A stretch of 64,000 nucleotides of DNA from Acarospora socialis (taxonomy: Eukaryota > Ascomycota > Lecanoromycetes > Acarosporales > Acarosporaceae), in NCBI GenBank assembly GCA_025617375.2, contig JAMYGW020000004.1, positions 1-64,000 of the forward strand, read 5' to 3'. The notes beneath the pieces are model-generated. The model was not told the origin of the DNA and searched no databases. It worked only from the letters and a program-made list of their open reading frames with translations. Every line of letters begins with the position of its first letter. Positions within the stretch are counted from its first letter, which is position 1. The translations under genes were made by a program, and so were the position numbers. Positions 1 to 20,828 of this stretch are shown here, piece after piece.

Positions 1-1
1 T

Positions 2-1879
2 ATGCCCATCCCCACTGTCAACTCACTCACTCAAACCCTGACTCTACCAGGGTGTGCCCTCCCCGACCTGACGCAGGCCGATCAAGGAAAGCAACCGCTA
101 GTCCAGAAAGACACTGTACACGAGAGAAAGGAGGTGAAGGTACCAGAGAGCGCGCCGCCATTCGGAGCGTCCTCTCCCAACTCCAAAAGAATCATTTGCT
201 TTGGTCAGGGAGATCCGGAGAACCCCTTCAATTGGTCGACGGTATGTAAGGCTGATATTTGCTTTGACCTGCCCCGGCTGACGCCTTTGTGCAGCGTAAA
301 AAGTCCATTGTCGTCCTTGTCGGCATCGTGACTGTGATCAACAGCACGCTCGGCTCAGCTCTACCCAGCGGCGCCATACGGTTTATCGCCCTATACTTCC
401 ATATCACCAATGAACCGCAGCTCGTTCTGCCCATCTCCATGTATCTTGTTGGCTACGTCCTCGGCCCTTTGCTCTTCGGACCGTTAAGTGAGACATATGG
501 AAGGAAGAAGATAATGACCGCAACATTTTGCTCGTACACGATATTTACGATGGCTTGTGCTCTGGCGCCGAACTGGCCTACATTACTGGTCTTCAGACTC
601 CTCGTGGGTATCGGCGCCTCATGTCCAGTATCTGTTGTCGGTGGACTTTACGCAGACATCTTCTCTGACCCTGTGACAAGAGGACGAGCGATGGCTTTGT
701 TCATGGCGGTACGCTCTTGTGCTGCTTTCCCAACTCGAACCTGCTAATGTTTCAAGGCCACGACCTTCGGTCCGCTACTAGGACCGATCATTTCGGGCTA
801 CATCTCTGTGCTCAGCTGGAGGTGGACCTTCTGGATCGGTTTCATCATTGCCGGTGTGTCTGTTATCCCTGTGCTGTTCCTTCCAGAAACCTACGGACCA
901 GTCATCCTTAAGAAGTACGCTCAGCAGATGCGGAAGGCTACAGGGGATCCAAACATCGTTGCGCCTATTGAGCTCGAAAAGAAGGGAGCGAAGCAGATGG
1001 TGACTGTCACTCTTATGAGACCGATCCGCATGCTACTGTTCGAAGCCATTGTTCTGTTCAGCTGTCTGTACCTTTCCCTTGCTTATGCGATCTTTTACAT
1101 GTTCTTTGAAGCATACCCTATAATTTTTCAGGGTGAGCTATTTCAGCATACTTATCGGACGAACATCAATGCTTACTCTGGCAGGTATCTACCGCATGAG
1201 TCCCGGCGTTTCTGGTCTCCCATTCATCCCTAGTATGTCCATCTCTCCGCATGTATTTTATTCATCTCTGACGTCTCCACTTCTAGTCGGCGTAGGGGCA
1301 GTCTTTGCGTGCGGAATCCTAATCTATTACGACTCTATCCTCCAGCGAGCTAAAGCTCGTAACGCTCCCTGGTCCAGTATAGAAGAATACCGCCGGCTTC
1401 CTCTCGCTTGCATTGGGGGTCCACTATACATCATATCTCTCTTCTGGCTCGGTTGGACAGCGTCACCTCATATTCATTGGATTGTACCTACGCTCGCTGG
1501 TCTGCCATTCGGCGTTGGCTTCTTACTCATTTTCATGGCGTTGATCAACTACTTGGCCGATGCCTATCAGATCTACGCGGCATCTGCACTTGCGGCGGCG
1601 AGCTTCTCCCGGTCAATCCTTGGGGCGCTGCTACCGCTGGCGGCAAAGCCCATGTATGACCGGCTCGGTGTTAGCTGGGCAAGCAGTCTCCTGGGATTCA
1701 TCAGTCTTGGGATGACGATTATTCCCTTCGCCTTTCTCAAGTACGGAGATCGGATTAGGGCGCGTTCAAAGTTTTGTCAGGAACTACTGCAACGGAAAAG
1801 TGCGATGCAAAAGAGCGATGGTGGTGGAGAGTACAAGGAGTACTCGAGAGAAGAAATGGGCGAGAAAGAAAAGCCTTGA
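2..1879 (+). CDS. MFS drug:H+ antiporter (DHA1-like, 12 TM)
   Basis: Membrane transporter of the major facilitator superfamily, probably exporting drugs, polyamines or small metabolites by proton antiport at the plasma membrane. I read five exons: 2-241, 295-708, 757-1132, 1185-1232 and 1287-1879, giving 556 aa. The cytosolic N-tail ends in the fungal DHA1 signature NPFNWS just before the first helix. The A-like loop motif is seen as GPLSETYGRKK, and the TM5 region as GPLLGPIISGY followed by WRWTFWIG. A PETYGP stretch opens the central cytosolic loop, and the tail is charged. Four introns of 48-54 nt have good donors (GTATGT, GTACGC, GTGAGC, GTATGT). The start lies at the second base of the window, so an upstream start cannot be excluded. 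It is the nearest neighbour of a flavin monooxygenase in the same orientation, a common pairing in detoxification or secondary-metabolite loci. The substrate cannot be told from sequence. Confidence 0.85.
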
Positions 1880-2201
1880 ACAGGACAGCATTTCTATTGT
1901 CTTCACCACATGAGTTGATGAACTTACGAGCAAAATGGGGCTGGAGTTCTCAAGAGGGGATTTAGGGTCGGGAACTTACAGCATTCGTCTCAAATAGAGG
2001 ATAATACAGGCTCAAAAGTTCAAATGCACGCTGCGATAACCTCGTAACTTCGTGAGGACCATGCATACACCTAATTCGCACAGATGCGACAGCGACCAAG
2101 GCTTGACCCAATCCAACGCCACCGCCCACCACACAACCCTTCCCAACTCCACCAGATCAGTCCCCGCACCGGCAAACCAGCAACGCACCACGATCCCAGC
2201 C
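1880..2201. other. Convergent 3' intergenic region
   Basis: About 320 bp between the ends of the MFS gene and the small minus-strand gene. It should hold both 3' UTRs. No RNA gene or repeat is visible; the right half is C-rich and low in complexity. Confidence 0.5.
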
Positions 2202-2572
2202 CTACCGCACGACCCCGTCTCCTCGCCCCCTCAACGCCCCTCCAACCCTACCCTCCCCTCCCAAACTCTCATAAGCCGGCGGCGGCGCCTCCTCGCTCTT
2301 GCCTCGCCCCACCTTCTCCCCCTCACTCAAATCTTCGCGACTCGAACTCGCACTCGCACTCCTCTTCTCGCCGACGGCGTTCGCCTTGTCGTTCTGGAGC
2401 TCGGAGTAGCGCGAGGCGTTGTGTTGTTCTTTCTTGGCTTTCTTCTTGGCGCGGTGGCTGCGGACTCTGTTTGGTTTTTGTTAGATGGTTGTTGAGAAGG
2501 GGGAGAGGGGTGGAGAGGGGAGGAGGACTTTTCATAGGTCAGAAAGCCGGCGGCGGCGATGAGGGAGGCCAT
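2202..2572 (-). CDS. Small basic fungal protein with C-terminal PPAY motif
   Basis: A 102-aa protein in two exons on the minus strand: 2572-2529 and 2466-2202, total 309 nt in frame with a TAG stop. The N-terminus (MASLIAAAGFLTYEKVRSHR) resembles widespread small fungal proteins with a short hydrophobic start followed by a Lys/Arg-rich stretch (AKKKAKKEQHNASRY). The middle is Ser-rich, and residues 76-80 read PPPAY, a PY motif of the type bound by WW-domain ubiquitin ligases such as Rsp5. The intron (2467-2528) ends in a perfect CTAAC branch and CAG acceptor, but its donor is an unusual GTCCTC. The gene is overlooked if the unspliced frame is read, because the frame changes at the intron. Seen: the spliced reading frame and motifs. 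Inferred: that it is expressed and a possible trafficking or ubiquitin adaptor role. I know of no assigned function. Confidence 0.6.
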
Positions 2573-3267
2573 TGTTGGATTGTCTCGTGGACTGGGGGCA
2601 GATGAGGTCTAGAGCTATATAATCTTTTCTGGCTTCGAGGGTTTTTAGGTATCTAATAATGGCACGGAACGAAGGTAAGAAAGAGGTTCATGGCATCATT
2701 GATAAAGCCCGAGCGTTCTTGGCGTCATGGAAAGCGAGACTGCGCCTCTGAAGGTACGAGGCTGGAGCTAGGGCTGAAAGGGAATGGTGTCCGTCAGATC
2801 GGAACGGGCGGATCTGGGGTTGTGGTGGTGGCGCTAGCAACTTCGACGTTTGCTCACCTTCTACCTTCAATTCGTTGCATATGCACGCTGTTCTGACAGC
2901 TGATGATTAATATGTACGTCGCAGTGAGCATCCGCGATGATGTTAGATCAGGCTTCGGCAGTGAGCGTATATGTAAGGATTCAATTGGAGCCACAACGTC
3001 CAATCCAGGATTGCGGTTAGCACGGATGCATGATTATGATATATCAGACAATTCTTGCTGTTGTTATCATATGATCGAGAACGTCTGCTTTCTCAGACGG
3101 AATCCCTCTGCCGCATCCGCCCCTTTGATCTCTTCAAATATGGGGTCTTTCCTCGATTGTCTGTTCAATAAGATATCCGTGTTATCGGTCAATAAGTATT
3201 AGCATTCCAGACTGGGGTCCTGCATCTATGCATCTGTTTACACTGTAGTGTTTAAGAAAGGGTGGCA
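2573..3267. promoter_or_regulatory. Divergent intergenic region
   Basis: About 700 bp between the start of the small PPAY gene (minus) and the start of the flavin monooxygenase (plus), so it should carry both promoters. I see no clear TATA box, repeat or extra gene. Confidence 0.4.
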
Positions 3268-4650
3268 ATGGGCTTCGAAGTACGGTTTGTTGTTTCACAA
3301 ACCCCCTCTGCAGAATCTCTCAGCTGTAGATTAGGGTAGTTTTCGGTATCTGTCTCTTACTCTCTCACAGGACCGTTATTCAGTCATCATCGTCGGTGCC
3401 GGACCCGTAGGCCTTCTGACTGCCCTCAGGCTCGGTCAGGCGGGTATCTCCACAATCGTGCTCGAAGGTCATGACAAGCTACTGGACACCACTCGGGCCG
3501 TCAGTTATATGCCTGTTGTGATCCCAGCACTTTCAAGCTTAGGAATTCTCGGACGGATTGAGGAGCAAGCCTACAAGAACACTGTTGGCGCAGTATGGCG
3601 AGATATGGAGGGCAATGTGCTTGGCGTGCTGCCATTATCCGGGGACAGTGCGGATGAGTACGGTGGTAACCTACTGATCGGACAGAGTGAACTCAGCGTC
3701 ATCATCCTTGACGCCTTGAATCGATATTCGAGTGTCAAAGTCGAATTCGGACACCGATGTGTGGGTATAGAGCAAGTAAAAGACGGCGTCAAAGTCATGG
3801 TCAACCATGACTATGATGACCAGCTACTACTCGCAGACTATGTGCTGGGGACAGATGGCGCGAACAGTTTCGTGCGCCGTGCTTGTTGCATACCATTCGA
3901 GGGCTATACATGGCAAGACTTCCAGATCACCGGTGCCGACGTCGAGTACGACTTCGAGAAAGAGTGTGGCCTCACTCCCTTCAACTACTTCGTTGACCCG
4001 AAAAATTGGGCGGTCATAGTGAGAACCAGCCACAAAAACCAGTGGCGTGTCGCGTACGCCGAGTCCCTCCAGCTTGACAACTCTGAAGCTGAGGTGAGAG
4101 CTCGATCGCACGAGAGGCTGGAGAAGTATATGAAGGGCTCGAAAGATTACCGGATCATCAGGTTGGCACCTTACCGGACCCACCAGCGATGCGCTGCCAC
4201 ATTTCGAAAAGGCAAGGTTCTGCTCGCAGGCGATGCTGCGCATGTAAGTTGACCGTTTAACATCTCGATATCTCTATCTTCCTCGTCATCTAAATCTACA
4301 CATAGTCGAACAACCCAATGGGCGGCCTCGGCCTCACAGGCGGCATCCTCGGTGCCTACACCTACGGCAATGCCTTGGTCCGTCACCTCAAGGGTGGAGA
4401 GAGCGATGAGATCCTCACCTGGTGTGCGAACTCGAGACGCGATACGTGGCGGAACATTACGCACCCGTGGTCGGTGGCGGAACTGCTTCGGTTGTATTCC
4501 ATGGATCAGAAGTCCGTCAAGGAGCGGGAAGTCTTCTTCGAGAGATTGAAGACGGATCCGGATTTTGCCAAGTCGTTGAGGAAGATTATGTATGACATGC
4601 TGCCGGAGACTTTCGCTGTTGGCTCGAAGTCGGCTGTGTCTGAGCTATAG
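3268..4650 (+). CDS. FAD-dependent monooxygenase (class A aromatic hydroxylase type)
   Basis: NAD(P)H-dependent flavoprotein monooxygenase of the phenol hydroxylase / MhpA / PF01494 type, expected to hydroxylate an aromatic or polyketide-like substrate in the cytosol. Exons: 3268-3279, 3371-4243 and 4306-4650 (409 aa). The ATG gives a four-residue first exon (MGFE) that splices through a GTACGG donor into DRYSVIIVGAGPVG, the Rossmann GxGxxG that binds the ADP part of FAD (residues 13-18). The second FAD motif, KVLLAGDAAH (about 286-295), is split from its continuation SNNPMGGLGLTGG by an intron. The protein is short and lacks the C-terminal thioredoxin-like domain of phenol hydroxylases. It lies downstream of an MFS transporter and about 1 kb from an internal telomere tract. 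The tiny first exon is the least certain part; the rest is clear. The substrate is unknown. Confidence 0.85.
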
Positions 4651-5675
4651 CTACCTTGCGGCCAGATGCAGTGACGAAAAATAGTGGTGCCACCGCAGTG
4701 CCACACTAGAGAATTCTCTATTTGGTGAACAAAGAAGATACTGAAGTACATCATATTGTTATCATTTTCTTACCATAATCATGTCACTCAGTGTAGTTTA
4801 TATATAAGAACATATGTGTATCTCAGACCTGTAATGAAAAAATGTTATATGTTGATGATTCTACACCATTATAGTATTGACACGCTCACATCAGAGTAGT
4901 TGGTTAAGGAATTCCGTGAACACTCCAATAATATGAAAATTCAAGACAGAGAATGGCAGTCAGAACAGTACACCATGGCTCAAACGTATAGAGGACTGAC
5001 GCACATATGCATCTATTAAAACTGGCTGAATTGGTCTGATTCCGCCATTATTTTCTATGTGGTGTTGAGTTTCATGCAATGTGAGTCTACGGAGTTCATC
5101 AACAATCACTGGATTCTGGATGTGTGTCAGCAACTGTGTGAAGTCATGATCACTGTGTCAAATCATATCATGAAGGTTATATAAACCTATTTTTTGGCAA
5201 ATTGTATCTTGTGGTGACATTGTGTTCAGGTACTGTATCTTGCCTATAAGATCTCTATGGTTTCAGGTCATAAATGAATGCCGTGTGGCTCATCACCAAA
5301 ACCTAATGGATGTATGAAGTCCTCTTCAGATTCATAAAAGAATGGTCCATAAGTATTCATACTTCATAGCATACAACATAATATGGAGTCCTCCATGTAA
5401 CATAGAAAGCTTTCCCAAAGAATCTATACCTCAGTACATTTCTGTCTCGTGCTGTTTTGGAGTGCTTCATATGAAATGATTGACATTCATTTACGACCTA
5501 GAACTATATTGAGGCAATCTGCAATCGCTTCTCTAGAGGCACCTATAAGTATTTCGACAATCTTGCTCGAGGGTTTCGGCAAGTAACTTCGCATAACACT
5601 GTAACCTGACATTTGCGGTGAGCCTACACCTGTACCGAAGCTCTCACTATGCAAGAAGGAGGCTCTGTGACTCTT
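4651..5675. other. Degenerate AT-rich stretch left of the telomere tract
   Basis: About 1 kb without an intact gene. Unlike the block to the right it keeps CpG dinucleotides, so it has not gone through the same mutation process. On the minus strand, between roughly 4900 and 5450, short protein-like runs are visible (for example NPVIVDELRRLTLHE) that suggest a decayed coding sequence, possibly of a repeat. I cannot assign a family. The last 40 bases before the telomere tract are GC-richer and show no similarity I can see to the retroelements on the other side. Confidence 0.35.
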
Positions 5676-5810
5676 CCCTACCCTAACCCTAACCCTAACC
5701 CTAACCCTAACCCTAACCCTAACCCTAACCCTAACCCTAACCCTAACCCTAACCCTAACCCTAACCCTAACCCTAACCCTAACCCTAACCCTAACCCTAA
5801 CCCTAACCCT
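5676..5810 (+). repeat. Interstitial telomere tract (CCCTAA)n
   Basis: About 22 uninterrupted copies of the fungal telomere repeat CCCTAA, preceded by a single variant unit (CCCTAC). All units point the same way, with the C-rich strand running 5' to 3' on the plus strand, as at a left chromosome end whose interior lies to the right. At about 5811 it gives way directly to the interior of a retroelement. The perfection of the tract suggests recent origin, telomerase maintenance until recently, or an assembly join. Any reading frame through it (Pro-Asn or Arg-Val repeats) is an artefact. Confidence 0.95.
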
Positions 5811-8800
5811 ATTCTTCTTGTAATGAATTTGAAATTCATAATCTGTCAACTGCTTTGCTCAATGAATCTGTCATTGATTGAGTTGCTTTGTTGTTGCAAA
5901 GTTTCTCAAATTCTTGTGATCTGTATAGATCTGAATTGACTTGCTTGTTCTCATGAAATAAGATCTTCAATCTTGCAGTGCTTTCACTATTGCAAGAAGT
6001 TTCTTGTCATGAACCTCATATCTTTTCTTGAGTTCTGACAACTTTCTAAATTGATATGCTATGAGTTTTTGTTGTTTCTTCTTGATCTGGTATAAGCATG
6101 CTTTTACTGTGAAATCTGAAGCATCAGTTTTCAGTGTTTTTTCACATGCTGAATTGAGTATTCTCAGGTGTGCTGTCTCACTAAGACTTTTCTTTAATGT
6201 GTGAAATGCATTTTTCTGCTCTTGATCTCAATGCTATTCTTTGCTTTTGCATGTCAAATGCATCAGTGATTTCACAATTCTTGCATAGTTTGGTATGAAC
6301 TTTCAATAATAGTTCATTAGTTCTAGAAAGACTTGTACTTTCTTGATTCACTTTGGTGTTGGTCAGTTTCTGACTGCTTTCATTTTCTTTGAATTCTTCT
6401 CAATTTGTTCAGATCAAATCACATAGTCTAGAAACTCAACTTTCTTGATCTCAAACCTGCTCTTTGACTTTTTCATGTACAAGACTTTCTCATTGAGCTT
6501 TGCCAATATCTTTCACACATGCTCACAGTGCTCTTCAAGGTCTTCTGAATATATCAGAATATCATTAAGGTATGTGATCATAAAATCATTGAGATATTCT
6601 CTCAATATATCATTGATCAATCTCTGAAAGATGACTGGTGCATTCTTCAAGTCAAATGACATAATAGTGTACTCATAGTGTCTGTATCTTGTTCAGAATG
6701 CCATCTTTCACTCTTCATCTTCTTTCATTCTAACTTGATAGTAGGTGTTCTTAAGATCTAAGCTTGTGAACCACTTAGTCTTGCTCAATCAGTTCTGCAA
6801 CTCTTCTATCAATGGTAGAAAATAACTGTCTTGATGAGTTATCTTGTTGAGTTGTCTGTAGTCAACACATAGTTATTTCTTGTCATTCTTCTTTGATATA
6901 AACAGGATCAGATATTCTGCTGGTGACTTCAATGATTTTATGAATTCTCTTTTCAGATTCTCATCAAGGTAAGTTTTAACTTTCTTGAGCTGGTTCTCAC
7001 TCATTGAGTATAATGACATTCACTTAGGTTGCTTTCTGTTCAATAGTGGTATTTTATAATCTCATGACTTATGCTCTGATAAGCTCATTTCTGGTTGTTC
7101 AGAAATCTTGTATGTGTCTTTGACTGCACATATCTCTTTTGTAACTCAATCAATTCTCAAATTTCTTCTGCATAATCAGGGCATCTTTAGTACTGTGTTG
7201 TATTCAATTGATTTCATAATATTGAACATTATTTCTTGTGGGTTTTCAAGAATTGAAACTTTCACACAGGTTTTCTCATCAATTCTCTCAATGACTTCAT
7301 TTGTCATTTGTATGTTGAATGAACAGCACACTCACCATGTCTCTAATTCTAACATGTTGACTGTTTTTCAGTTTATGATGTTATTGTCTGCTTCAAAATT
7401 CATCAATGTGTTGATGTGATGTTCATTGATCATAATCTTGATTCATATTCAATGATCATTGTCTTGTCTTTGAGACACCACTAGCTCCTTATTCTCTAGT
7501 CTTGTTGAGAAAGCTCTTCATTTTTTGACTCACTCAGTCATTCAGTTCATCTTCAGATTTCTTGAAATCATCTGAGTTTTCTTTCAATCATAAGATTCAC
7601 ATACTCTAGACTGTGCTGCTCAATGCATCTTTTCAGATGTAGTTGAAGTTCATACTGATTGTACTTCATCTGCAACTGACTCTCAAAGACTTTTACTCTT
7701 TGCAGAAATTCAAATGATATATACTCTTCACTGAAGATTCATCTGTCTTCATTCTGCATGATATATTTTTCAAGTAAGCATATTTTAATCTTGTGACTCT
7801 TAGTCTTTCACACAAGAGATCTCAATAATACTGCATCATCACTGTTGAGACATTCATCTTTAACAGCTATCATCAGCTCTTCTAGCTGATTGCATGTCTT
7901 TTGTTCTTTCACACTCTTGTGTTGTGCTTCTCATTTCTGAGCTTATATCTCTTGCTTAAGCTTCTGCTTCTTGAATTGAAGCTTTTTTTCTTTTAATGCT
8001 TGTTGTTGATTCTCAGAGTGCTGGTATGCTGTCTTCAGTTTTATATCAACTTCTCATTTGTTGATCTCTTTCTGGTTCACATTCAAATTCAGTGCTTGTC
8101 AGATGCTATCACTGTAGTCTTTTTCTATCTGAGTTTCTCAAGTATCAGTCTCTTCAATCTCAGCATCAAGAACATCTTTCTTGATAAAAGTAGCTAATTC
8201 TTTTTCATAGACTGATCTGTTGCATTCATCTTTGTCTTTTCTTCTAGACTTCTGTGAGTACCATTTGACTCTGTCTTTTGCACTCATATGTACTCTGCAC
8301 ATGTCATTGTAACAGACTGTTCAGCTGAGAGTGTTGTGCACTACACATGTATTTTTCTTAACTGTCACTGCAACATTTTTTCTTTCTATCTGAGATCTGT
8401 TGCATTTTCAGACAAGGTGTTTGAGTTTCTCACAGTTATAACATGTTCACATCTTGTTTTGCAGTGTCATCTGAGACTTAGTGAACTGCTTCAGCTGACA
8501 TTCATGCTTCACTCATCTAGTCTTTCATGACTTCTGATGACACTTCTTGATCATATTGAAGTTCATAGAGTTTGTTTCTCTATGTCTTACTGATGAAACA
8601 TATTGCTTTGTTCACAGTCAGAAGCTTTCTTCTTGATCTTTTATCATAGATGGCATTCAATATTCTTTTTGTTTCATCTGTTGTTCTCATTGATGACTGT
8701 CAATGTTGATACTCAGATCAATCATTTTCTGAAGATTATCTGATTGTTCTGCTTGAGCTATCTTGTCTTTGATGAACTCTCTCAACTCACAATAGTACTG

Positions 8801-9734
8801 GTAGATGAGTACTTCATTGTTTTATCTGGTAAGTGCTGCTAATCACTGAAACTCTGTGGTGTATACTGCTGTCAATTCACTCTGTCACAAGGTGTGAACT
8901 TGTCTCTCTGCTGCTCTTTCTTCATTAATCACTCTGAAGACTTTTCTGAGTTCTTTCTTGAACTTGTTGAAGTCATTGAACATGAACTTCATGTTAGCAT
9001 TGCATTCATCATAATTCTTTTCTAGAAATTCATGTAGCCTGAAGTCAACCCAATTGAAGGCTGCATTCACTAGGTAGGTTGTTGCAAACAATGTTTTTTC
9101 TTGATTGGTTTGAAACTTTGATTGATTGAATTCAATGTATAGATTGAGCTTAGTCACAAAGACTCACAGCTTTTCTCATTCTTCACCAAAGATATCAAGT
9201 ACCTGAATCTTTAATGCATTTACAGATAGTTGTATCACCTGAGCTGGCATCACTGATTGTGTCACCATTCTATTTAAAGTAAATGGTAGAGGTGGGTTTG
9301 CCTGAACTTGTCTCAAGAATGAAGTTGAGATGTTCTTCTGTGTGTCAGACATCATACTTGTTATATTGTAAGAATGTTCAAAGTGTAACATTCTAACCTG
9401 AGATTTTCCAGATATGTAGAGCTAAGAGTTTGTGCTTGTTAATATAACAACTGGTCTGAAACAGTTCTGGACTTTTAACTTTTAGATGGTTACTTAAGTT
9501 GAACATAATTCTTTTCATAAGAAAAATGATCATGACTATATACTGAGTCTGCTCATTGATCTCACTGTTGAGTCTGTCAAGACAGCTCACTCATGCAATC
9601 TGTTGAGCTTGCTTGTCAAGCTTGTCATTGAGCATGTTGAGGTGTCACATGACTGCTGCCTAACATTTCTTGAATATACATCTCTCATGTGTACACATCA
9701 GTCTGCTCTAAGTTCATTCTAACTTGACTGTAAC
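5811..9734 (-). mobile_element. Ty3/gypsy chromovirus copy A (incomplete fossil)
   Basis: Minus-strand LTR retroelement. From right to left: 5' LTR (9384-9734), gag start next to it (about 8885-9380), a CCHC zinc-knuckle region near 8380-8460, then reverse transcriptase (about 6390-7000) and part of RNase H up to the telomere tract. Integrase, chromodomain and 3' LTR are absent. Family is judged from the gag-pol order and from matching copy C, which carries integrase and a chromodomain. The copy is broken by many changes and lacks CpG, so it is old or heavily mutated. Its LTR outer edge abuts interior sequence of copy B, as if A had inserted into B. Confidence 0.85.
9384..9734 (-). repeat. 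5' LTR of copy A
   Basis: A 351-bp repeat bounded by TG..CA (minus strand TGTTAC...TTACA) that recurs at 12764-13114 and 19171-19522. The gag start lies just inside it on the left. Confidence 0.8.
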
Positions 9735-12700
9735 ACTTCTGTCTTTTTTGAATTCTTCTTGATCTGTTCAGGTTGAATCACATAGTCTAGAAACTCAACT
9801 TTCTTGATCTTGAACCTGCTTTTTGACTTTTTCACATACAAGACTCTCTTGTTGAGTTTTATCAGTATCTTTTACACATGTTTGCAGTGCTTCTCAAGGT
9901 CTTCTGAATATATCAGAATGTTGTTAAGATATGTGATCACAAAATCATTGAGATATTCTCTCAATATGTTGTTGATCAGTCTCTGAAAGATGACTGAGGC
10001 ATTTTTCAACTTAAATGACATGACAGTATACTCATAGTGTCTATATCTTGTTCAGAATGCTGTCTTTCATTTTTTATCTTCTTTCATTCTAACTTGATAG
10101 TAGGTATTCTTAAGATCTAAGCTTGTGAACCACTTAGTCTTGTCTAATCAGTCTTGTAACTCTTCTATCAGTGGTAGAGAATAACTGTCTTGATGAGTTA
10201 TCTTGTTGAGTTGTCTGTAGTCAACACATAGTCATTTCTTGTCATCTTTCTTTGATACAAACAGAATTAAATATTCTACTGGTGACTTTGATAATCTGAT
10301 GAATTCTCTCTTAAGATTCTTGTCAAGGTAAGTTTTAACTTTCTTGAGCTGGTTCTCACTCATTGAGTATAATGACATTCACTTAGGTTGCTTTCTGTTC
10401 AATAGCAATATTTTGTGATTTCATGACTTATGCTCTGGTAAGCTCATTTTTGGTTGTTTGAGAATTTTATATGTGTCTTTGACTGCATATATTTCTTTTG
10501 TAACTCAATCAATCTGTGAATTCTTTTTGTACAATCAAGACATCTCTAGCATCACATCATATTCAATTGATTTCATGACATCAAACATGATCTCTTGTAG
10601 ATTTTCAAGAATTGAGACTTTCACACAGATTTTCTCATCAATTCTTTTGATGACTTCATTTGCCATTTGTATGTTGAATGGACAGTGTGCTTACTGTGTC
10701 ACTAATTTTAACATATTGACTATTTGTCAGCTCATGATATTTTTATTCACTTCAAAATTCATCAATGCATTGATCTGATGTTCATTGATCATGATCTTGA
10801 TTCATATTTAATGATCATTATTCTGTCTTTGAGACACCACTAGCTTCTTATTCTCTAGTCTTGTTGAGAAAGCTTCTTGTTTTTTGACTCACTCAGTCAT
10901 TCAGCTTGTCTTCAAAGTTCTTGAAATCATCTTGATTTTCTTTTGATCATGAGATTCACATACTCTAGACTGTGCTGCTCAATGCATCTTTCTAAGTGTA
11001 GTCAGAGTTCATACTGATTGTACTTCATTCACAACTGACTTTCACAGACTCTTACTCTTTGCAGAAATTCAAGTGATATATATTCTTCACTGAAGATTCA
11101 TCTTTCTTCATTCTGTGTGATATATTCTTCAAATAAGTGTATCTCAATCTTGTGACTCTTTGTTCTTCAAACAAGAGATTTTGACAATACTGTGTTGTCA
11201 CTGTTGAAACATTTGTCTTTAACAGCTATCATCAGCTCTTCTAGCTGATCATATGTCTTTTGTTCTTTCACACTCTTGTGTTGCACTTTCTGTTTCTGAG
11301 CTTGCATCTCTTGCTCAAGCTCTTGCTTCTCAAATTGAAGCTTTTCTTCTCTCAATGCCTTGTGTTGATTCTTGAGATGCTGGTATACTGTCTTCAGCTT
11401 CATATTGACTTTTTATTCATCAATTTCTTTCTGATTTGCATTCAAATTCAGTGCTTGCCAGATGCTATCACTGTAGTCTTCTTCTATCTGAGTTTCTCAA
11501 GTATTGATTTCTTTGATCTCAGCATCAAGAACATTTTTCTTGATAAGAATAGCTAATTCTTTTTTGTAGATTGATTGACTCATTGTGTTATGTCTATTTC
11601 TTGCACCTTTGTGTGACTTCTGTGAGTATCATTCAGCTTTGTTTTTTGCATTCATGTGTGTTCAACACATATTGTCATAACAGGCTGTTCAACTCAGAGT
11701 GTCATGCACTACACTTGATTTCTTCATTTTTGTTTTGATCATTACTGCTGCAACATTTTTCCTTTTCATTTGAGGTCTGTTGCATTCTCAAGCAAGGTGT
11801 TCAGGTTTTTCACAGTTGTAACACATTCATATCTTGTTTTGTGATGTCATCTGAGACTTAGTGAATTGCTCTGTCTGACATTCAGACTTCATTTATCTAG
11901 TCTTTTATGACTTCTGATGATGCTTCTCAATCATATTGAGATTCATAGAGTCTGTCTTTCTATGTCATATCAGTGAAATGTATCACTTTATTCACAGTCA
12001 GAAGCTTTCTCCTTGACCTTCTATCATAGATGGCATTCAATATTTTTTTTGTTTCATCTGTTGTTCTCATTGACAACTGTCAATGTTGATACTTAGATTA
12101 ACTATTCTCTGAAGATTGTCTGATTGTTCTGTTTGAGCTATCTTGTCTTTGATGAACTTTCTCAACTCACAATAGTACTGGTAGATGAGTGCTTTGTTAT
12201 TTCATCTGGTAAGTGCCACTAATTGCTGAAACTCTGTGATGTATACTGTTGCTGATTCACTCTGTTGCAAGATGTGAACTTATCTTTCTGCTGCTCTTTC
12301 TTTGTTAATCACTCTGAAGACTTTTCTTAATTCTTTCTTAAACTGTGCATAGTCATTGAACATAGACTCTGTATTTGTGTTGTGTTTCTTGTACTCTTTT
12401 TCTAAGAACTCATGCAGTTTGAAATCAATTCAATCAAAAGCTGCATTGATGAGGTAGGTTGTTGCAAACAATGTCTTCTCTTGATTGGTTTGAAACTTTG
12501 ATTGATTGAATTCAATATACAGGTTGAGCTTAGTCACAAAGACTCATAACTTTTCTTATTCTTCTCTGAAGACATTGAGTACCTGAATCTTTGATGCACT
12601 CATGAGTAGTTGTATTACCTGAGCTGACATCACTGATTGTGTCACCATTCTGTCTGAAGTAGATGATAAAGGTAAGTTTGCTTGAGCTTGTTTCAAGAAC

Positions 12701-13114
12701 AAGATTGAGACATTCTTCTGTGTGTCAGACATCATACTTGTTATATTGTAAGAGTGTTCAAAGTGTAATGTTCTAATCTGAGATTTTCTAAGTATGTAGA
12801 ACTAAGAGTTTGTGCTTATTAATATAACAGTTGATCTGAAACAGTTCTGAACTTTAACTCTTAGATGATTACTTAAGTTGAACATGATTCTTTTCATAAG
12901 AAAAATGACTGTGACTATATACTGAGTCTGCTTGCTGATCTCACTGTTGAGTCTGTTGAGGCAGCTTACTCATGCAACTCATTGAGCTTGCTCACTAAGC
13001 TCACCATCAAGCATGTTGAGATGTCACATAACTGCTGCCTAAACATTCTCTGAATGTATGTCTTTCACATGTATGCATCAGTCTGTTCTAAGTTTATTCT
13101 GACTTGATCATAAC
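9735..13114 (-). mobile_element. Ty3/gypsy chromovirus copy B (incomplete fossil)
   Basis: Minus-strand copy colinear with copy A: 5' LTR (12764-13114), gag (about 12240-12760), zinc-knuckle region, and reverse transcriptase up to about 9740, where it stops at the outer edge of copy A's LTR. The remainder of pol and the 3' LTR are not present. It is broken by many changes and CpG-free. Its own LTR outer edge abuts interior sequence of copy C, which points to insertion of B into C. Confidence 0.85.
12764..13114 (-). repeat. 5' LTR of copy B
   Basis: A 351-bp repeat very similar along its whole length to the LTR of copy A, with the same TG..CA ends. Confidence 0.8.
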
Positions 13115-16100
13115 ACTCTTATCAAGAAAAGATTTCTTAATGCTGAGAAAGAAAGAGATGCTCTCAAAGATGACATTGAAGAGACTGATGATCATGAATT
13201 TCAGATTGATGAATCTTGAATATTTCTCAATAACAATACATTCACAGAAGAAAGTTCAGACAATACTGAGACAGAGTTCTCAAGAAAGTACTGAGTGAAG
13301 ATCAAGAGAGATCTAAGTGCTCAGAGAAAGATGACATCAGATTGCAACACAATGCAAAAGAAAAAGCAAAAGACTTGAAATCAGAAAGTGAAAGTATGCA
13401 AAGAATTCAACAATCTAATAAAAGACATACAAACAATCACAGAGAAACTGATATCAGAAGTTCTTGTGTGAAAAATCAAGAGTCACAAGATTGAAATACA
13501 CTTATCTGAAGAATACATCATGCAAAATGAAGACAGATGAATCTTCAGTGAAGAATATATATCATCTGAATTTCTGCAAAGAGTAAAAGTCTTTGAGAGT
13601 TAATTGCAGATGAAGTATGATCAGTATGAATCTCAATTACATCTGAAGAGATGCATTGAGCAACTCAGTCTAAAGTATGTGAATTTCATGATCAGAAGAA
13701 AATCAAGATGATTTCAAGAACTTTGAAGATGAGCTGAACAATCAAGTGAGTCAAAAAACAAAAAGCTTTCTTGACAAGACTAGAGAATAAGAAGCTAGTG
13801 ACATCTCAAAAACAAGACAATGATCAGCAAATATGAATCAAGATCATGATCAATGAACATCAGATCAACACATTGATGAATTTTGAAGCAGACAGTAATA
13901 TCATGAACTGAAAGACAGTCAGCATGTTGAAATTAGAGACATGATGAGTGTGCTGTTCATTCAACATATAAATGATGAATGAAATCATTGAAAGAATTGA
14001 TGAGAAAATCTGTGTGAAAGTCTCAATTCTTGAAAATTCACAAGAGATAACATTCAATGTTATAAAGTCAATTGAATATGATGCAGTACTAGAAATGTCT
14101 TGATTGCACAGAAGAAATTCAAGAATCAATTGAGTTACAAAAGAGATATGTGCAATTGAAGACACATATGAGATTTCTGAACAATTAAAGATGAGCTTAT
14201 CAGAATATAAGTTATGAAATCACAAAATATCACTATTGAAAGAAAAGCAATCTAAATGAATGTCATTGTACTCAATGAGTGAGAATCAACTCAAGAAAGT
14301 TAGAACTTATCTTGATGAAAATCTTAAGAGAAAATTCATAAAATCATCAAAATCACCAGCAGAATATTCAATTCTGTTTATATCAAAGAAGAATGACAAG
14401 AAATGACTATGTGTTGACTACAGACAACTCAATGAGATAACTCATCAAGATAGTTATTTTCTATCACTGATAAAAGAGTTGCAGAATTAATTAAACAAGA
14501 CTAAGTGATTCACAAGCTTAGATCTTAAAAACACATATTATCAAGTCAGAATGAAAGAAGATAAAGAATGAAAAATGACATTCTGAACAAGATATGAGCA
14601 TTATGAGTACATTATCATGTCATTTAAGCTGAAAAATGTCTCAGTCATCTTTCAGAGATTGATCAATGACATATTAAGAGAGTATCTCAATGATTTTGTA
14701 ATCACATATCTTAATGATATTCTGATATACTCAGAAGATCTTAAAAAGCACTGTAAGCATGTGCAGAAGATATTGACAAAGCTTAATGAAAAAGTTTTAT
14801 ATGTGAAAAAGTCAAAGAGCAGATTCAAGATCAAGAAAGTTGAGTTTTTAAACTATGTGATTTGATCTGAACAAATCAAGAAGAATTCAAAGAAGATAAA
14901 AGCAGTCAGAAACTGATCAACACCAAAATGAATCAAGAAAGTACAGATCTTTCTAGAACTGATGAACTATTATTGAAAGTTTGTATCAAATTATGCAAGA
15001 ATTGCAGAATCACTAACACATTTGACACACAAGAGTGAAGAATAACATTGGGATAAAGAACAGAAAGATGTGTTTCACATATTAAAGAAAAGTTTTAGTG
15101 AAACAGCACATCTGAGAATACTCAATTCAGCATACAAGAAGACACTGAAAACTGATGCTTCAGATTTCACAGTAAAAGCATATTTATATTAGATTAAGAA
15201 GAAGCAGCAGAAATTCATAACATATTAATCTAGAAAGTTATCAGAATCTGAGAAAAGATATGAGATTCACAATAAGAAACTTCTTGCAATAGTAGAGACA
15301 CTGCAAGATTGAAGATCTTATTTCACAGAAACAAGCAAGTCAATTCAGATCTATACAGATCATAAGAATCTGAGAAACTTTGCAACAACAAAGCAACTCA
15401 ATCAACAACAGATTTGTTGAGCAGAGCAGTTGACAGACTATAAATTTCAGATTCATTACAAGAGAAATAATGAAAATGACAGAACAGATGTCTTGAGCAG
15501 ATGATTTGATCATGAGAGTATATGAACAATACACATCAAAATTCTAAGCAAAGACAACAACAGAATTCTCACAAAGAACTTAGCAGCAATGTACAAGATG
15601 AAGCAAGCTCTCTTGATAAACAACAAACTCATTGAGATATGTCACTACAGCAAAGTCAATAAACATCTAAAAGTTAAACACACTGAAGATCTAATGCAGA
15701 GAAGACACAATGTTAACAACTTTAGAAATTGAGTCATCAAAATAATTGCTGTGTACAATTCATGCTGAAGAAACAGAGTCAATCAAGATAAACAATATAA
15801 TGAAGTAACACAACTAGATGCACTGAACACATCATGAAAGTCAGTTATTATGAACTTCATCATAAAGCTATTACTGTTCAAGAATTCAGCATGAAAAATG
15901 AGATTCAACAGTATATTGATGATAGTGAATAGATTGACTAAGTACACAATGTTCATTTCATTCAAAGAAACTGCAACAGCACCAGTATTAACATACACAA
16001 TACTAAGAGAATTGATTAGCAATCATGAACTATCAAGAGAATTTATCACTGACAGAGACAAGCTGTTTACAAGCAAGTTTTGAAAAACACTTACAGCAGA

Positions 16101-16889
16101 GCTCAGAATAAAACACAAGATGTCAACAGCATATTACTCACAGACAGATAAACAAAGTAAGTGAATGAATCAGATAGTAAAAACATACTTGAGACACTAT
16201 GTCAACAGAAGTCAAGACAACTGAGTATGACTGTTGTCAACAGCACAGTTTGTGTACAACAACACAAGAAATGAAATCACAAAAGAAATGTCTTTCTATG
16301 TGAACTATGACTACAACTCAGAAATATGACAAGATTTCAAAGAACATGAATCACAGAGTTAAAAAGCAATTTTGAACATCACACAAATGAAAAAACTGCA
16401 TCAAGATCTAACAAAGCAAATCAAACAGCAGACAGAACAAACAACAGAGACAAGATCATTTAAAGAAGAAAAAAAGATATATCTGAGAACAGACAACATA
16501 CAGACAAAGAAAAGAAGCAAGAAGTTAGAAAACAAAAGCATTGAATCATTCAAGATCATATGAAACATCAGAAGATTAAGCTATGAGCTAGACTTACTCA
16601 AGAAAATGAGAATACATTCAGTATTTCATGTATTCATGCTACAGCACTGCAATCAGTTCATATCACTTCAAATCAATGAAATGTCTGTCAAACTCAACAA
16701 AGAATACAAAGTTAAGAACATTCTAGAGAGAAGAATGATTAGTGAGAAAGCTCACTATTTCATTAAGTGAAAAGATTATGACATCTCAGAAAATATCTGA
16801 GAATTCAGAGAGAACCTCAAGAACTGCACAAGAATACTTCAATGTTTTAAGAAAAAAAGTCAATATTAGTTCAGAAGAATGACAACATC

Positions 16890-17299
16890 AAGTCAACAAG
16901 TTATGACATTGTTTGAGAATCTTCATTCTCAGTCTCATCATTATCACTATCAAATTCAGCAGCAAAACAGTCAGTCTTCTGCACAGCACAATGATTCATT
17001 TGATTCAAAGTCTTTTGAAGATGCATCATCTTGATGATAAGAGCATCAAGAATCACATTTGCATCACTTATTTTCTTTTGAAGTGAAAGATGAGTCTTGT
17101 TAAGAGACTTTCACAAAACTGCAACACACAAATGACTGCAGTGAGTACACTTATTGCATTTCAATCTTTCATCAGTCATAACAAAGCAATCAAGATCACA
17201 AGCAGTACAGAATTCACAAGAAAATGTGATGAGACTATCACTGAGTTGATTTTCCTTTATGATTCTTAGACAATTGAAATTTTTAGAAAGCATTGTCAC
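16890..17299 (-). other. Antisense Cys-motif reading frame in copy C
   Basis: A minus-strand reading frame between chromodomain and 3' LTR, opposite to the element's own genes. Its start carries a C-x2-C-x3-C cluster (CEFCTACDLDC) followed by a second C-x2-C-x2-C cluster (CNKCTHCSHLC), and an acidic end (FDSDNDETENED). A TATATAA-like box lies about 45 bases upstream of its ATG, where LTR and frame meet. The same layout occurs in copy E. Small Cys-cluster plus coiled-coil proteins of this kind are common among predicted fungal proteins linked to repeats; the function is unknown. It is broken, as is the element around it. Confidence 0.55.
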
Positions 17300-17370
17300 T
17301 GATGATGAATGATGTAAATACTTTCACTTATATAAACTCTAGAGAACTAGCACCTGAAGAGAAAAAATGA

Positions 17371-17731
17371 TGTTACAATCATATTCAGAAGAAAAGAAAC
17401 TCATGAGTCTGTGACTAAAAGTTCACTCAGAGTGTATACAGAAGAAACTGCTAGACAGCAGTCACATAACAGCACAATGACTCAACAGTGAGCAGACAAG
17501 CTGAGAACTCAACTTCTCAACATTGAGACATCAAGACATCAAGAGTGCTCAATGCAGAGATGTCAAGCACATTCTATATAGTAGAGTTGTTTCTCTTATG
17601 AAAACAATTATGTTCAACTTAAGTAATCATCTAAGAGTTAAAGTTCAGAACCATTTCAGATCAGCTGTTATATTAACAAGCACAAACTCTTAGTTCTACA
17701 AACTCAAGAAATCTCAGGTTAGAACATTACA
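17371..17731 (+). repeat. 3' LTR of copy C
   Basis: A 361-bp repeat bounded TGTTAC...TTACA. Its 3' half matches the LTRs of copies A, B and E, but the 5' half is different and matches only the LTR at 18043-18403. Confidence 0.8.
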
Positions 17732-18403
17732 GATAGATTGTTGCAAACAGTGTTTTCTCTTGATTGGTTTGAAACTTTGACTGATTGAATTCAATATATA
17801 GATTGAGCTTTGTCACAAAGACTCACAGTTTTTCTCATTCTTCATCAAAGACATCAGATACCTGAATCTTTGATGTACTCATAGATAGTTGTATTATCTG
17901 AGCTGACATCACTGATTGTGTCATCATTCTATCTGAAGTAAATGATAGAGATGAGTTTGTCTGAACTTGTCTCAAGAACAAGGTTGAGATGTTCTTCTGT
18001 GTGCCAGACATTGTACTTGTTATATTGTAAGAATGTTCAAAGTGTAATATTCTAATCTGAGATTTCTTGAGTATGTAGAATTAAGAGTTTGTGCTTATTG
18101 ATATAACAACTGATCTGAAACAGTTCTGATCTTTAACTCTTAGATGATTACTTAAGTTGAATATGATTGTTTTCATAAGAAAAATGACTCTACTATATAG
18201 AATGTGCTTGATGTCTCTGTGTTGAGTACTCTTGATGTCTTAATATTTTGATGTTGAGAGATCAAGTTCTCAGCTTGTCTGCTCATCATTGAGTTGTTAT
18301 GCTGTTACATGACTGCTGTCTAGCAGTTCTTCTTGTACACACTTTGAGTGAACTTCTGATCACAGACTTGTGAGTTTCTTTCTTTTTAGACATGATTGTA
18401 ACA
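17732..18403 (-). mobile_element. Ty3/gypsy copy D (gag start plus LTR, incomplete fossil)
   Basis: Minus-strand remnant made of a 5' LTR (18043-18403) and the first part of gag (about 17732-18030), colinear with gag of copies A and B. Everything beyond gag is missing because copy C's LTR edge lies there. It is broken and CpG-free. Its LTR outer edge abuts the chromodomain region of copy E, so D appears to have inserted into E. Confidence 0.8.
18043..18403 (-). repeat. 5' LTR of copy D
   Basis: A 361-bp LTR in inverted orientation to 17371-17731 and of the same subtype, including the variant 5' half. Confidence 0.8.
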
Positions 18404-18681
18404 ATTTCATGCATTCATGCTACAACACTGTGATCAATTCATACTACTTCAAACAATCAAAATGTCAGTCAAACTCAATGAAGAATATGAAGTCAAGAAC
18501 ATTCTGAAAAAGAGAATGATTAGTAAGAAAGTTCACTATCTCATCAAATGAAAAGATTATAACATCTCAGAAAATATCTGAGAATTCAGAGAAAATCTCA
18601 AGAACTGTGTGAGAATGCTTCAATGTTTTGAGAAAAGAAATCAATATTAGTTCAGAAGAATGAAGACATCAAATTGACAAG

Positions 18682-19094
18682 TTATGACATTGTTTGAGAA
18701 TCTTCATTCTTAGTTTCATCATTATCACTATCAAGTTCAGCAGTAAGACAGTCAACTTTCTGTGAGACACAGCAGTTCATCTGATTCAGAATTTTCTGAA
18801 GATGTATGATTTTTGAGAAGAGAGTGACAAGCTCAGTGTGCTTGACTGCTAATTTGCTGTTTGCTTTACTTATTTTCTTTTGAAGCAAAAGATGAGTTCT
18901 ATCAAGAAACTCTCACAATACACTGACACATGAATGATCATGATGAGTACATTTATTGCATTTTGGTCAAGATTTCATTACAAAACAGTTGATGCTGTGA
19001 TGGGCACAATAGTCACAAGAAAATGGGGTGAGTGCATCATCAATTTGAATTTTCTTTGCAATTCTTAGACAATTGAAATTTTTAGAAAGCATTG
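18682..19094 (-). other. Antisense Cys-motif reading frame in copy E
   Basis: Second copy of the antisense frame of 16890-17299, in the same place relative to chromodomain and LTR. The coiled-coil-like middle (VTLFSKIIHLQKILNQM) and acidic end (LDSDNDETKNED) are conserved, and a TATATAAG box again lies upstream of the start. Preservation of this layout in two element subtypes argues that it is a real part of the family rather than chance. This copy is broken. Confidence 0.55.
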
Positions 19095-19170
19095 TTGTCA
19101 ATGACAAAGAATATAAATACTCTCACTTATATAGACTCTAGAGAACTAGCACCTGAGAAGAGAAGAATAA

Positions 19171-19522
19171 TGTTATGATTAAGTCAGAACAGACTTAGAA
19201 CAGACTGATGTGTATGTGCAGAGAGTGTATATTCAGGGAATATTTAAGCAGCAGTCATGTGACACCTCAACATGCTCAATGATGAGCTTGACAAGCAAGC
19301 TCAACAGGTTGCTTGAGCAAGCTGCCTCAATGAGCTCAGTGGTGAGGCTGGCAAGCAGGCTCAGTATATAGTCATGGTCATTTTCCTTATGAAAAGAATC
19401 ATGTTCAACTTAAGTAATCATCTAAGAGTTAAAGATCAAAACCATTCCAGACCAGTCATTATATCAACAAGCACAAACTCTTAGTCCTACATACTTGAGG
19501 AATCTCAGGTTAGAACATTACA
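19171..19522 (+). repeat. 3' LTR of copy E
   Basis: A 352-bp LTR of the A/B subtype, in plus orientation, ending ...TTACA just before host sequence. Confidence 0.8.
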
Positions 19523-19679
19523 GTATGCATTTAAAATTATGAACAATGCAGTCAAATAAGTAGTTGCTATTGGTCTTTCTGAGCTGGTGAGACATGTCAT
19601 GAAGTTCTCTCTTGTGCACATTTTTATCTTGTTATTTCTTTTTTTTGTTGTCTGATTCTTTCTTTTAAACATCTTTGAG

Positions 19680-20828
19680 ATGGTGAATTTGACTTTTGCT
19701 CTCATCACAGCATTGCTTGTTACACTTGCTCAGACAATTGAAGTGACATTCAGTTCTTTCTGTCTCTCAACATGTGAAGATGACTCTACTTTTGACATCA
19801 ATCTTATCTGCAGTGATCACAGTTATAATAACACTGACATTGATAGAAAGATGCAAGCATGTCTTGAATGTGAGAGCACAAGCACAGCTAGTCAACTGTT
19901 CAAGGAAAATAATATGGTCAAAAATGACTTATATTGGTTACTGTGTAAGAAAGCAGGCAAGCTATTGGATGATTGGCTTGCTAACTGTACACTAAAACCA
20001 CAGTCAACATGAAATACACCTTGCAGACATGTCTCTTCATGAACACCACCAATATCTCTGGTATGCCTGTGTGTAGCACATCATGTGATTCTCTGAAAGC
20101 AAACCTTGAAACCTCATGGTTTCAGACTTCAATGCTTACACAGTTTAAATACTGTGAATTGGATGGAGGGTCATTTCCTGCAAACGCAGATGGATGTGCA
20201 ACTTGCCTTAAAGGAAAGCCTGGGTCTATCGTGCTGGGAAACCGTGAGCACCTGTGATGCTGCCTTCCCGTTCAGGGAAATAGTTGATGAGGTTTACTGA
20301 TGCAAAACAGTTTTGAAAGCAATGAACTCAGCCTGCAGCAGTAAGCCCAATGCAACACTAGGTCAGACACTTACTCTGCCGCAACTGCTATTTCAGCTCA
20401 TCGAGTCCATATCGACCCTGACCAGTTTCTCAGCGCCAAGCTCTACGGCAACGACATAAAGCTCTTCTGCCACCACGCTGTCAACTAGCATATCTTCTGC
20501 AGTGTCTTCCGGTCTCTCCACCGGAGCCTCCGTTGGCATTGGTGTCGGAGTTGGCGTCGCAGCTCTTGCTGCGTTGGCCGCTATAACAGCGTGGCTTTGT
20601 CTGCGACGGAAGAAACGAAGTGGACGCCAGCCTATCCAGACTTATGGAGACGACAAGACTGATGCACCCCTACCTAATTATTTGCAAGCACCCACACCGC
20701 TTGAGCTGCACAACGAGCATTCACAATATCCAGAGGAGATGGATGGGGCCCCGAGTCCTGATCTGAGTACCAAGGTAGACACAGCACACACAGGAAGCAA
20801 TATGGCACCTGCTGAGCTGGGACCTTAG
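19680..20828 (+). CDS. Cys-rich secreted/membrane-anchored protein with in-frame stop (probable pseudogene)
   Basis: Resembles fungal cell-surface proteins with a signal peptide, a cysteine-rich ectodomain, a Ser/Thr linker, one TM helix and a cytosolic tail. Exons: 19680-19944, 20004-20243 and 20311-20828. Intron 1 has GTAAGA and a GCTAAC branch; intron 2 has GTGAGC and ACTGAT. The signal peptide is MVNLTFALITALLVTLAQT; the ectodomain has about 15 cysteines. The TM helix (GIGVGVGVAALAALAAITAW) is followed by LRRKKR and a hydrophilic tail. A TAA at 20457-20459 splits the frame inside the Ser/Thr linker, whose coding character is the same on both sides. Without readthrough or an unseen intron (a weak GTTTCT donor exists at about 20425) the product is a secreted 217-aa ectodomain lacking its anchor. 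The first two thirds contain no CpG, like the adjacent retroelements, which suggests mutation spreading from the repeats. Confidence 0.6.

Follow-up and report, generated by a model that had tools for sequence, protein, structure and literature searches.

The stretch of DNA analysed here, which we call the window, comprises the first 64,000 bases of contig C4 (C4:1-64000, window base 1 being base 1 of the contig). C4 is 2,601,389 bases long and belongs to a genome assembly of 31,147,409 bases in 38 contigs, whose TTAGGG telomeres, genes with introns and overall size point to a filamentous fungus as the likely source. Near its left edge a one-way tract of telomere repeats lies between an outer stretch identical to part of contig C12 and an inner block of retroelement remnants, and the features on which our argument turns are as follows.

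1-5677, no strand assigned: contig tip, probably extraneous, an exact copy of C12:453514-459190 (reversed) that includes the greater part of an MFS transporter gene together with a FAD-binding gene; identified by a 100% match, its base-by-base extension, and MFS_1 and FAD_binding_3 matches.
5676-5811, no strand assigned: CCCTAA tract in left-end orientation; identified by Tandem Repeats Finder (TRF), exact units, a genome-wide list of tracts and its junction.
5807-5813, no strand assigned: inner junction, CCCTATT, where the repeat passes into the element through a common TA; identified by comparison with nine other copies.
5810-7817, minus strand: degraded copy of gypsy type that is cut at the tract and contains pieces of RNase H and of reverse-transcriptase-like sequence; identified by BLAST and RT_RNaseH_2.
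5812-19800, no strand assigned: AT-rich subtelomeric block of nested retroelement remnants without CpG (0 observed, 386.8 expected).
13462-15469, plus strand: inverted copy of the same stretch of element (copy C of an earlier reading), the element going on beyond 15469; identified by BLAST, the upstream bases and RVT_1.

Tandem Repeats Finder describes the tract as a period-6 repeat of 22.8 copies with 99% matches, within which 21 CCCTAA units run uninterrupted from 5681 to 5806, preceded by CCCTA and followed by CCCTATT; the first two bases of the tract (CC) are common to the C12 copy. A sequence-only reading of this DNA had reported about 22 perfect units running in the direction of a left chromosome end, and both the length and the direction were borne out: the repeats stand in one orientation only, that of a left end whose interior lies to the right, which leads us to reject a head-to-head fusion of two telomeres at this site. 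A run of 20 units yields 92 sliding matches in the 31-Mb genome (41 forward and 51 reverse) and the reversed pattern, searched as a control, yields none genome-wide; because long runs gather near contig ends and this control is empty, we reject a chance origin for the tract.

The 92 matches resolve into 20 long tracts of at least 20 units, 12 of them forward and near left contig ends and eight reverse and near right ends, the C4 tract being a forward one that lies 5.7 kb from the left end of its contig. Tracts occur at 12 of the 19 left ends surveyed (C1-C18 and C38, with the window standing for C4) and are absent from the other seven. The longest perfect run measures 21 units at the left end of C4, 21-24 units in the other 11 left-end tracts and 25 units at the right end of C2. 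Forward repeat 24-mers number 235 genome-wide, a count for which the 12 left-end tracts fully account, and therefore no forward run of at least four units exists elsewhere; on the reverse strand, 179 of 254 such 24-mers fall in the eight long tracts and the other 75 in shorter runs. Because the window opens at base 1 of C4, the tract, correctly oriented near a contig end and similar in length to the tracts at other ends, is best read as the genuine natural left telomere of C4. The tract at the right end of C1 (C1:4072812-4073063) is about twice as long, with 42 perfect units where the other counted tracts have 21-25.

On its inner side, the tract meets a retroelement. The sequence-only reading had placed the repeats directly against the RNase H region of a gypsy copy, had noted that the same element continues past this point in copy C, and had concluded that the first copy was cut here, and each of these observations held when examined with domain models and alignments. 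RT_RNaseH_2 matches at 5970-6227 (E 2.3e-19) and RT_RNaseH at 5874-5966 (E 0.0024, below the curated cut-off), both on the minus strand, the pieces compared with family models lying inward of the short one that touches the tract. The copy at 5810-7817 aligns by BLAST with the inverted copy at 13462-15469 at 86.5% identity; the latter, beyond whose end the element sequence goes on, contains an RVT_1 match at 14587-14862 (E 1.2e-12). The reverse transcriptase and RNase H domains of the element were found in pieces between stops, a candidate integrase piece at 15895-16080 gave no family match, and the gypsy label follows the earlier reading and the type of RNase H model matched. In all nine comparable copies (one in the window and eight at other contig ends examined), element sequence runs past the junction, where C4 has telomere repeats instead. 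The overlap between repeat and element is a 2-nt TA that is found in all nine copies, and two bases could match by chance.

The earlier reading had further suggested that the chromosome broke within a transposon and then received a new telomere, and the inner junction fits this suggestion in the continuation of all nine copies, in the 2-nt overlap, and in a tract length and orientation like those of other ends, so that this reading is, overall, partly supported. Chromosome C4 would have broken inside the degraded gypsy copy, and telomerase would then have added TTAGGG repeats at the 2-nt TA seed, as the structure of the junction suggests. A study of Magnaporthe oryzae (PMC7367193) describes telomeres formed de novo where chromosome ends had been truncated, some of them inside MoTeR elements; of 24 new telomeres, 19 used seeds of 1-4 nt, and the study reports a sequenced case of element truncation followed by new repeats. 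The likeness to C4 lies in repeats that abut a truncated repeated element across a very short seed; those events, however, were caught in culture whereas only the product is seen here, and the element here, unlike MoTeR, belongs to an ordinary gypsy-type family with many interior copies and is probably not telomere-targeted.

The family is abundant: among the 40 of its 397 candidate members that were scored, the long matches, with the query's own place excluded, are 80-87% identical and five short matches are 67-70% identical. Telomere repeats come within 7 bases of the family at four of the 14 tract-bearing ends whose inner side was examined (C4 left, C7 left, C8 left and C2 right), and therefore ends healed in common repeat DNA are ordinary in this genome; at C11 left the family lies about 64-80 bases from the tract. 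We do not favour an element that targets telomeres, as interior copies are many and the telomeres abut the element at different positions. A second account, confined to the inner junction and compatible with the explanation of the whole locus that we prefer below, is that C4 gained its telomere through recombination or break-induced replication from another end carrying the same family. The proximity of family and tract at several ends favours such an exchange, as do the junctions at C7 left and C2 right, whose positions in the element differ by only some 11 bases, but C4 left and C8 left abut the element at other, different positions, and the 2-nt overlap fits telomerase seeding as the Magnaporthe study describes it (PMC7367193). 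We regard acquisition by recombination as a possible but rather unlikely origin for this junction.

The longest stretch of the window that is free of CpG extends for 14,549 bases, and the next longest for 277. Within the first 3 kb inside the tract, nine of the 14 tract-bearing ends contain no CpG where 42-86 would be expected, and the other five contain 5-202. Across about 2008 positions, the two element copies in the window disagree at 271, and 260 of the differences are C/T or G/A. Loss of CpG on opposite strands would account for 38 adjacent TG/CA column pairs (76 columns), so that most of the differences between the copies are of another kind. The CpG-free retroelement sequence shows no rise in TpA, unlike in classical RIP, and the dinucleotide indices do not support RIP of the classical CpA type as the cause of the AT-richness, the erasure of CpG being seen instead. 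In a survey of 10 fungal genomes, CpG signatures are connected with methylation and subsequent deamination (PMC4352252), and a Coccidioides study mentions repeat mutation affecting CpG and CpC (PMC9409882). A narrow combined query on the absence of CpG from fungal elements returned no literature match, a result that proves nothing about what is in print.

Outside the tract, window positions 1-5670 match C12:453521-459190 at 100%, and base-by-base comparison extends the identity to window position 5677 (C12 453514), with no difference in 5677 bases. Beyond 453514 C12 enters unrelated sequence, which contains no telomere units where it runs on past that point, and at the other end C12 continues past the counterpart of window base 1. 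The sequence read at 453514 leads us to reject a telomere repeat at the source locus. The outer stretch contains an MFS_1 match at 268-747 (E 1.7e-17), with a later MFS piece below the cut-off, and a FAD_binding_3 match (E 1.9e-36); elsewhere in the genome it matches dispersed repeats and distantly related sequences (47 matches in total). One dispersed repeat of about 250 bp, at 5256-5509, has over a dozen copies on many contigs at 83-89% identity and is possibly a small non-autonomous element.

Six other ends of the assembly resemble that of C4. An outer tail of 472-6416 bases lies beyond seven of the 20 long tracts (C1 left, C1 right, C3 right, C4 left, C8 right, C9 left and C12 left), and the other 13 tracts stand within 56 bases of a contig end. 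Over the parts searched, six of the seven tails match a source in the assembly at 100% as rounded, three of these sources being chromosome-size contigs and three being C38. Besides the C4 tail, the chromosomal cases are C1 right, which derives from C4 (first 1935 bases, 1868057-1869991; last 301 bases, 1863577-1863877; 100% and collinear), and C3 right, whose first 646 bases, the part searched, match C11 at 100%. From C38 come the tails of C1 left (3465 bases, of which 3453 match at a rounded 100% a source of 3451, a two-base length difference), C9 left (660 bases, 100% as rounded) and C12 left (470 bases, 100% as rounded). For the C8 right tail, searches with its first 606 and last 301 bases found no exact source in the assembly: the 606-base segment has its only match in C20 (91% identity across roughly 210 bases), and the 301-base segment is 95% identical to C15 and C33. 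A two-unit telomere repeat is absent from the source stretches read at the junctions (C12, C11 and C4) and from the outer end of the C1-left source, and a telomere repeat at the source is accordingly rejected for the C3 right and C1 right source pieces that were read. The contigs break off within the tails, none of which shows a distal telomere in the sequence scanned, namely the four left tails and the last 60 bases of each of the three right tails.

Two of the contigs to which these tails relate have organellar features. The bacterial LSU rRNA model is matched over its full length in the first 10 kb of C38, which also contain seven tRNAs at a GC content of 0.295, and the first 10 kb of C15 contain the same LSU rRNA match and four tRNAs at a GC content of 0.293; from these first 10 kb of each, we read both contigs as mitochondrial DNA. 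By this assignment four of the seven tails are of mitochondrial type, three from C38 and one, C8 right, resembling C15. Matches within C15 (247.5 kb) recur at a spacing of about 131 kb, which would fit two tandem copies of one circular mitochondrial-type molecule in the assembled contig. C38 (67.8 kb) constitutes a second mitochondrial-type contig, 87-99% identical to C15 in the stretches compared, and the pair may represent two mitochondrial types or come from a mixed sample.

The pattern of tails leads us to conclude, with high confidence, that a real telomere formed in an old retroelement copy at the left end of C4 and that the tip outside it derives from C12 through a chimeric read kept by the assembler. 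The sequence-only reading had left the sequence to the left of the tract as either a fusion to another broken end or a wrong joining of contigs; wrong joining is favoured by the exact C12 duplicate and the six other tailed ends, with four tails of mitochondrial type, and fusion is very unlikely. Had C4 fused naturally to another chromosome, the far side should be missing from its own place, whereas it still stands uninterrupted in C12, and we take the 5.7-kb tip as a probable error of assembly rather than a fusion of chromosomes. As expected of a chimeric tip, the C4 tail exactly duplicates an unrelated locus that lacks the repeat. While the duplicate is directly visible, as 5.7 kb of a C12 fragment present in the C4 contig, the events behind it are reconstructed: an unrelated fragment of C12 would have become attached to the telomeric end of a single molecule while the library was being prepared or sequenced, and the assembler would have kept the overhang as a contig tip, since at a chromosome end no other read would contradict it, whereas inside a chromosome neighbouring reads would contradict such a chimera. 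The same process would have operated at the six other ends, and chromosome-end molecules joined at random to other fragments, frequently ones of high-copy mitochondrial DNA, would produce the observed pattern of tails. Points that count against a chimeric tip are the C8 right tail with its lack of an exact source, the length difference between the C1 left tail and its source (3453 against 3451), the 42 units at C1 right, and the share of reverse 24-mers (75 of 254) in shorter runs.

In a nanopore assembly of the fungus Drechmeria coniospora, a misassembly has been attributed to a single very long chimeric read (PMC7500977), and the likeness lies in a contig that carries a piece of another locus through trust in one chimeric read; here, by contrast, such pieces sit at tips outside telomeres, at seven of the 20 long tracts, are partly of mitochondrial type, and are seen in the assembled sequence.

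Among the accounts that compete with a chimeric read, we consider highly improbable a real cellular addition, in which a failing telomere was repaired by break-induced replication of internal sequence or by end joining and the old tract was left inside. The tract does have the orientation of a former telomere, and a review describes alternative telomere maintenance in Pyricularia, in which de-protected ends acquire internal sequence and vestigial telomeres come to lie inside the chromosome (PMC8381367). The telomere relics of Pyricularia oryzae described there resemble the C4 end in having a one-way tract beyond which lies sequence of internal type, and misassembly of one genome was ruled out in that case by three other assemblies (PMC8381367). 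The tail of C4, however, is an exact duplicate without a difference in 5677 bases, and its sister tails include three that match C38 and a fourth that resembles C15, both of mitochondrial type. Moreover, the C4 tract is of normal length and uneroded, with 21 perfect units against 21-24 at the other left ends, the tails are uncapped by telomere repeats in the sequence scanned, and all seven ends would need to have been affected.

We find it scarcely credible that the assembler wrongly joined two contigs through common telomere repeats. Telomeric repeats do sit at the join, and Flye was reportedly confounded by such repeats in one fungal assembly (PMC7500977), but the partner would have to carry the repeat, which is absent from the source stretches read, and a join between two ordinary telomeres would place them head to head and not in a single direction. 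We give equally little credence to the idea that the organism itself adds duplicated internal and mitochondrial DNA outside intact telomeres at about one-third of its chromosome ends, a behaviour unlike that of telomerase or of known recombination-based maintenance.

Recognition that the C4 tip is probably a chimeric product guards against a false report of chromosome fusion. Seven contig ends of the assembly probably require trimming, which at the beginning of C4 would remove a spurious second copy of two genes. Were the tails real, the view of how telomeres are extended would have to change, but their pattern points to read chimeras.
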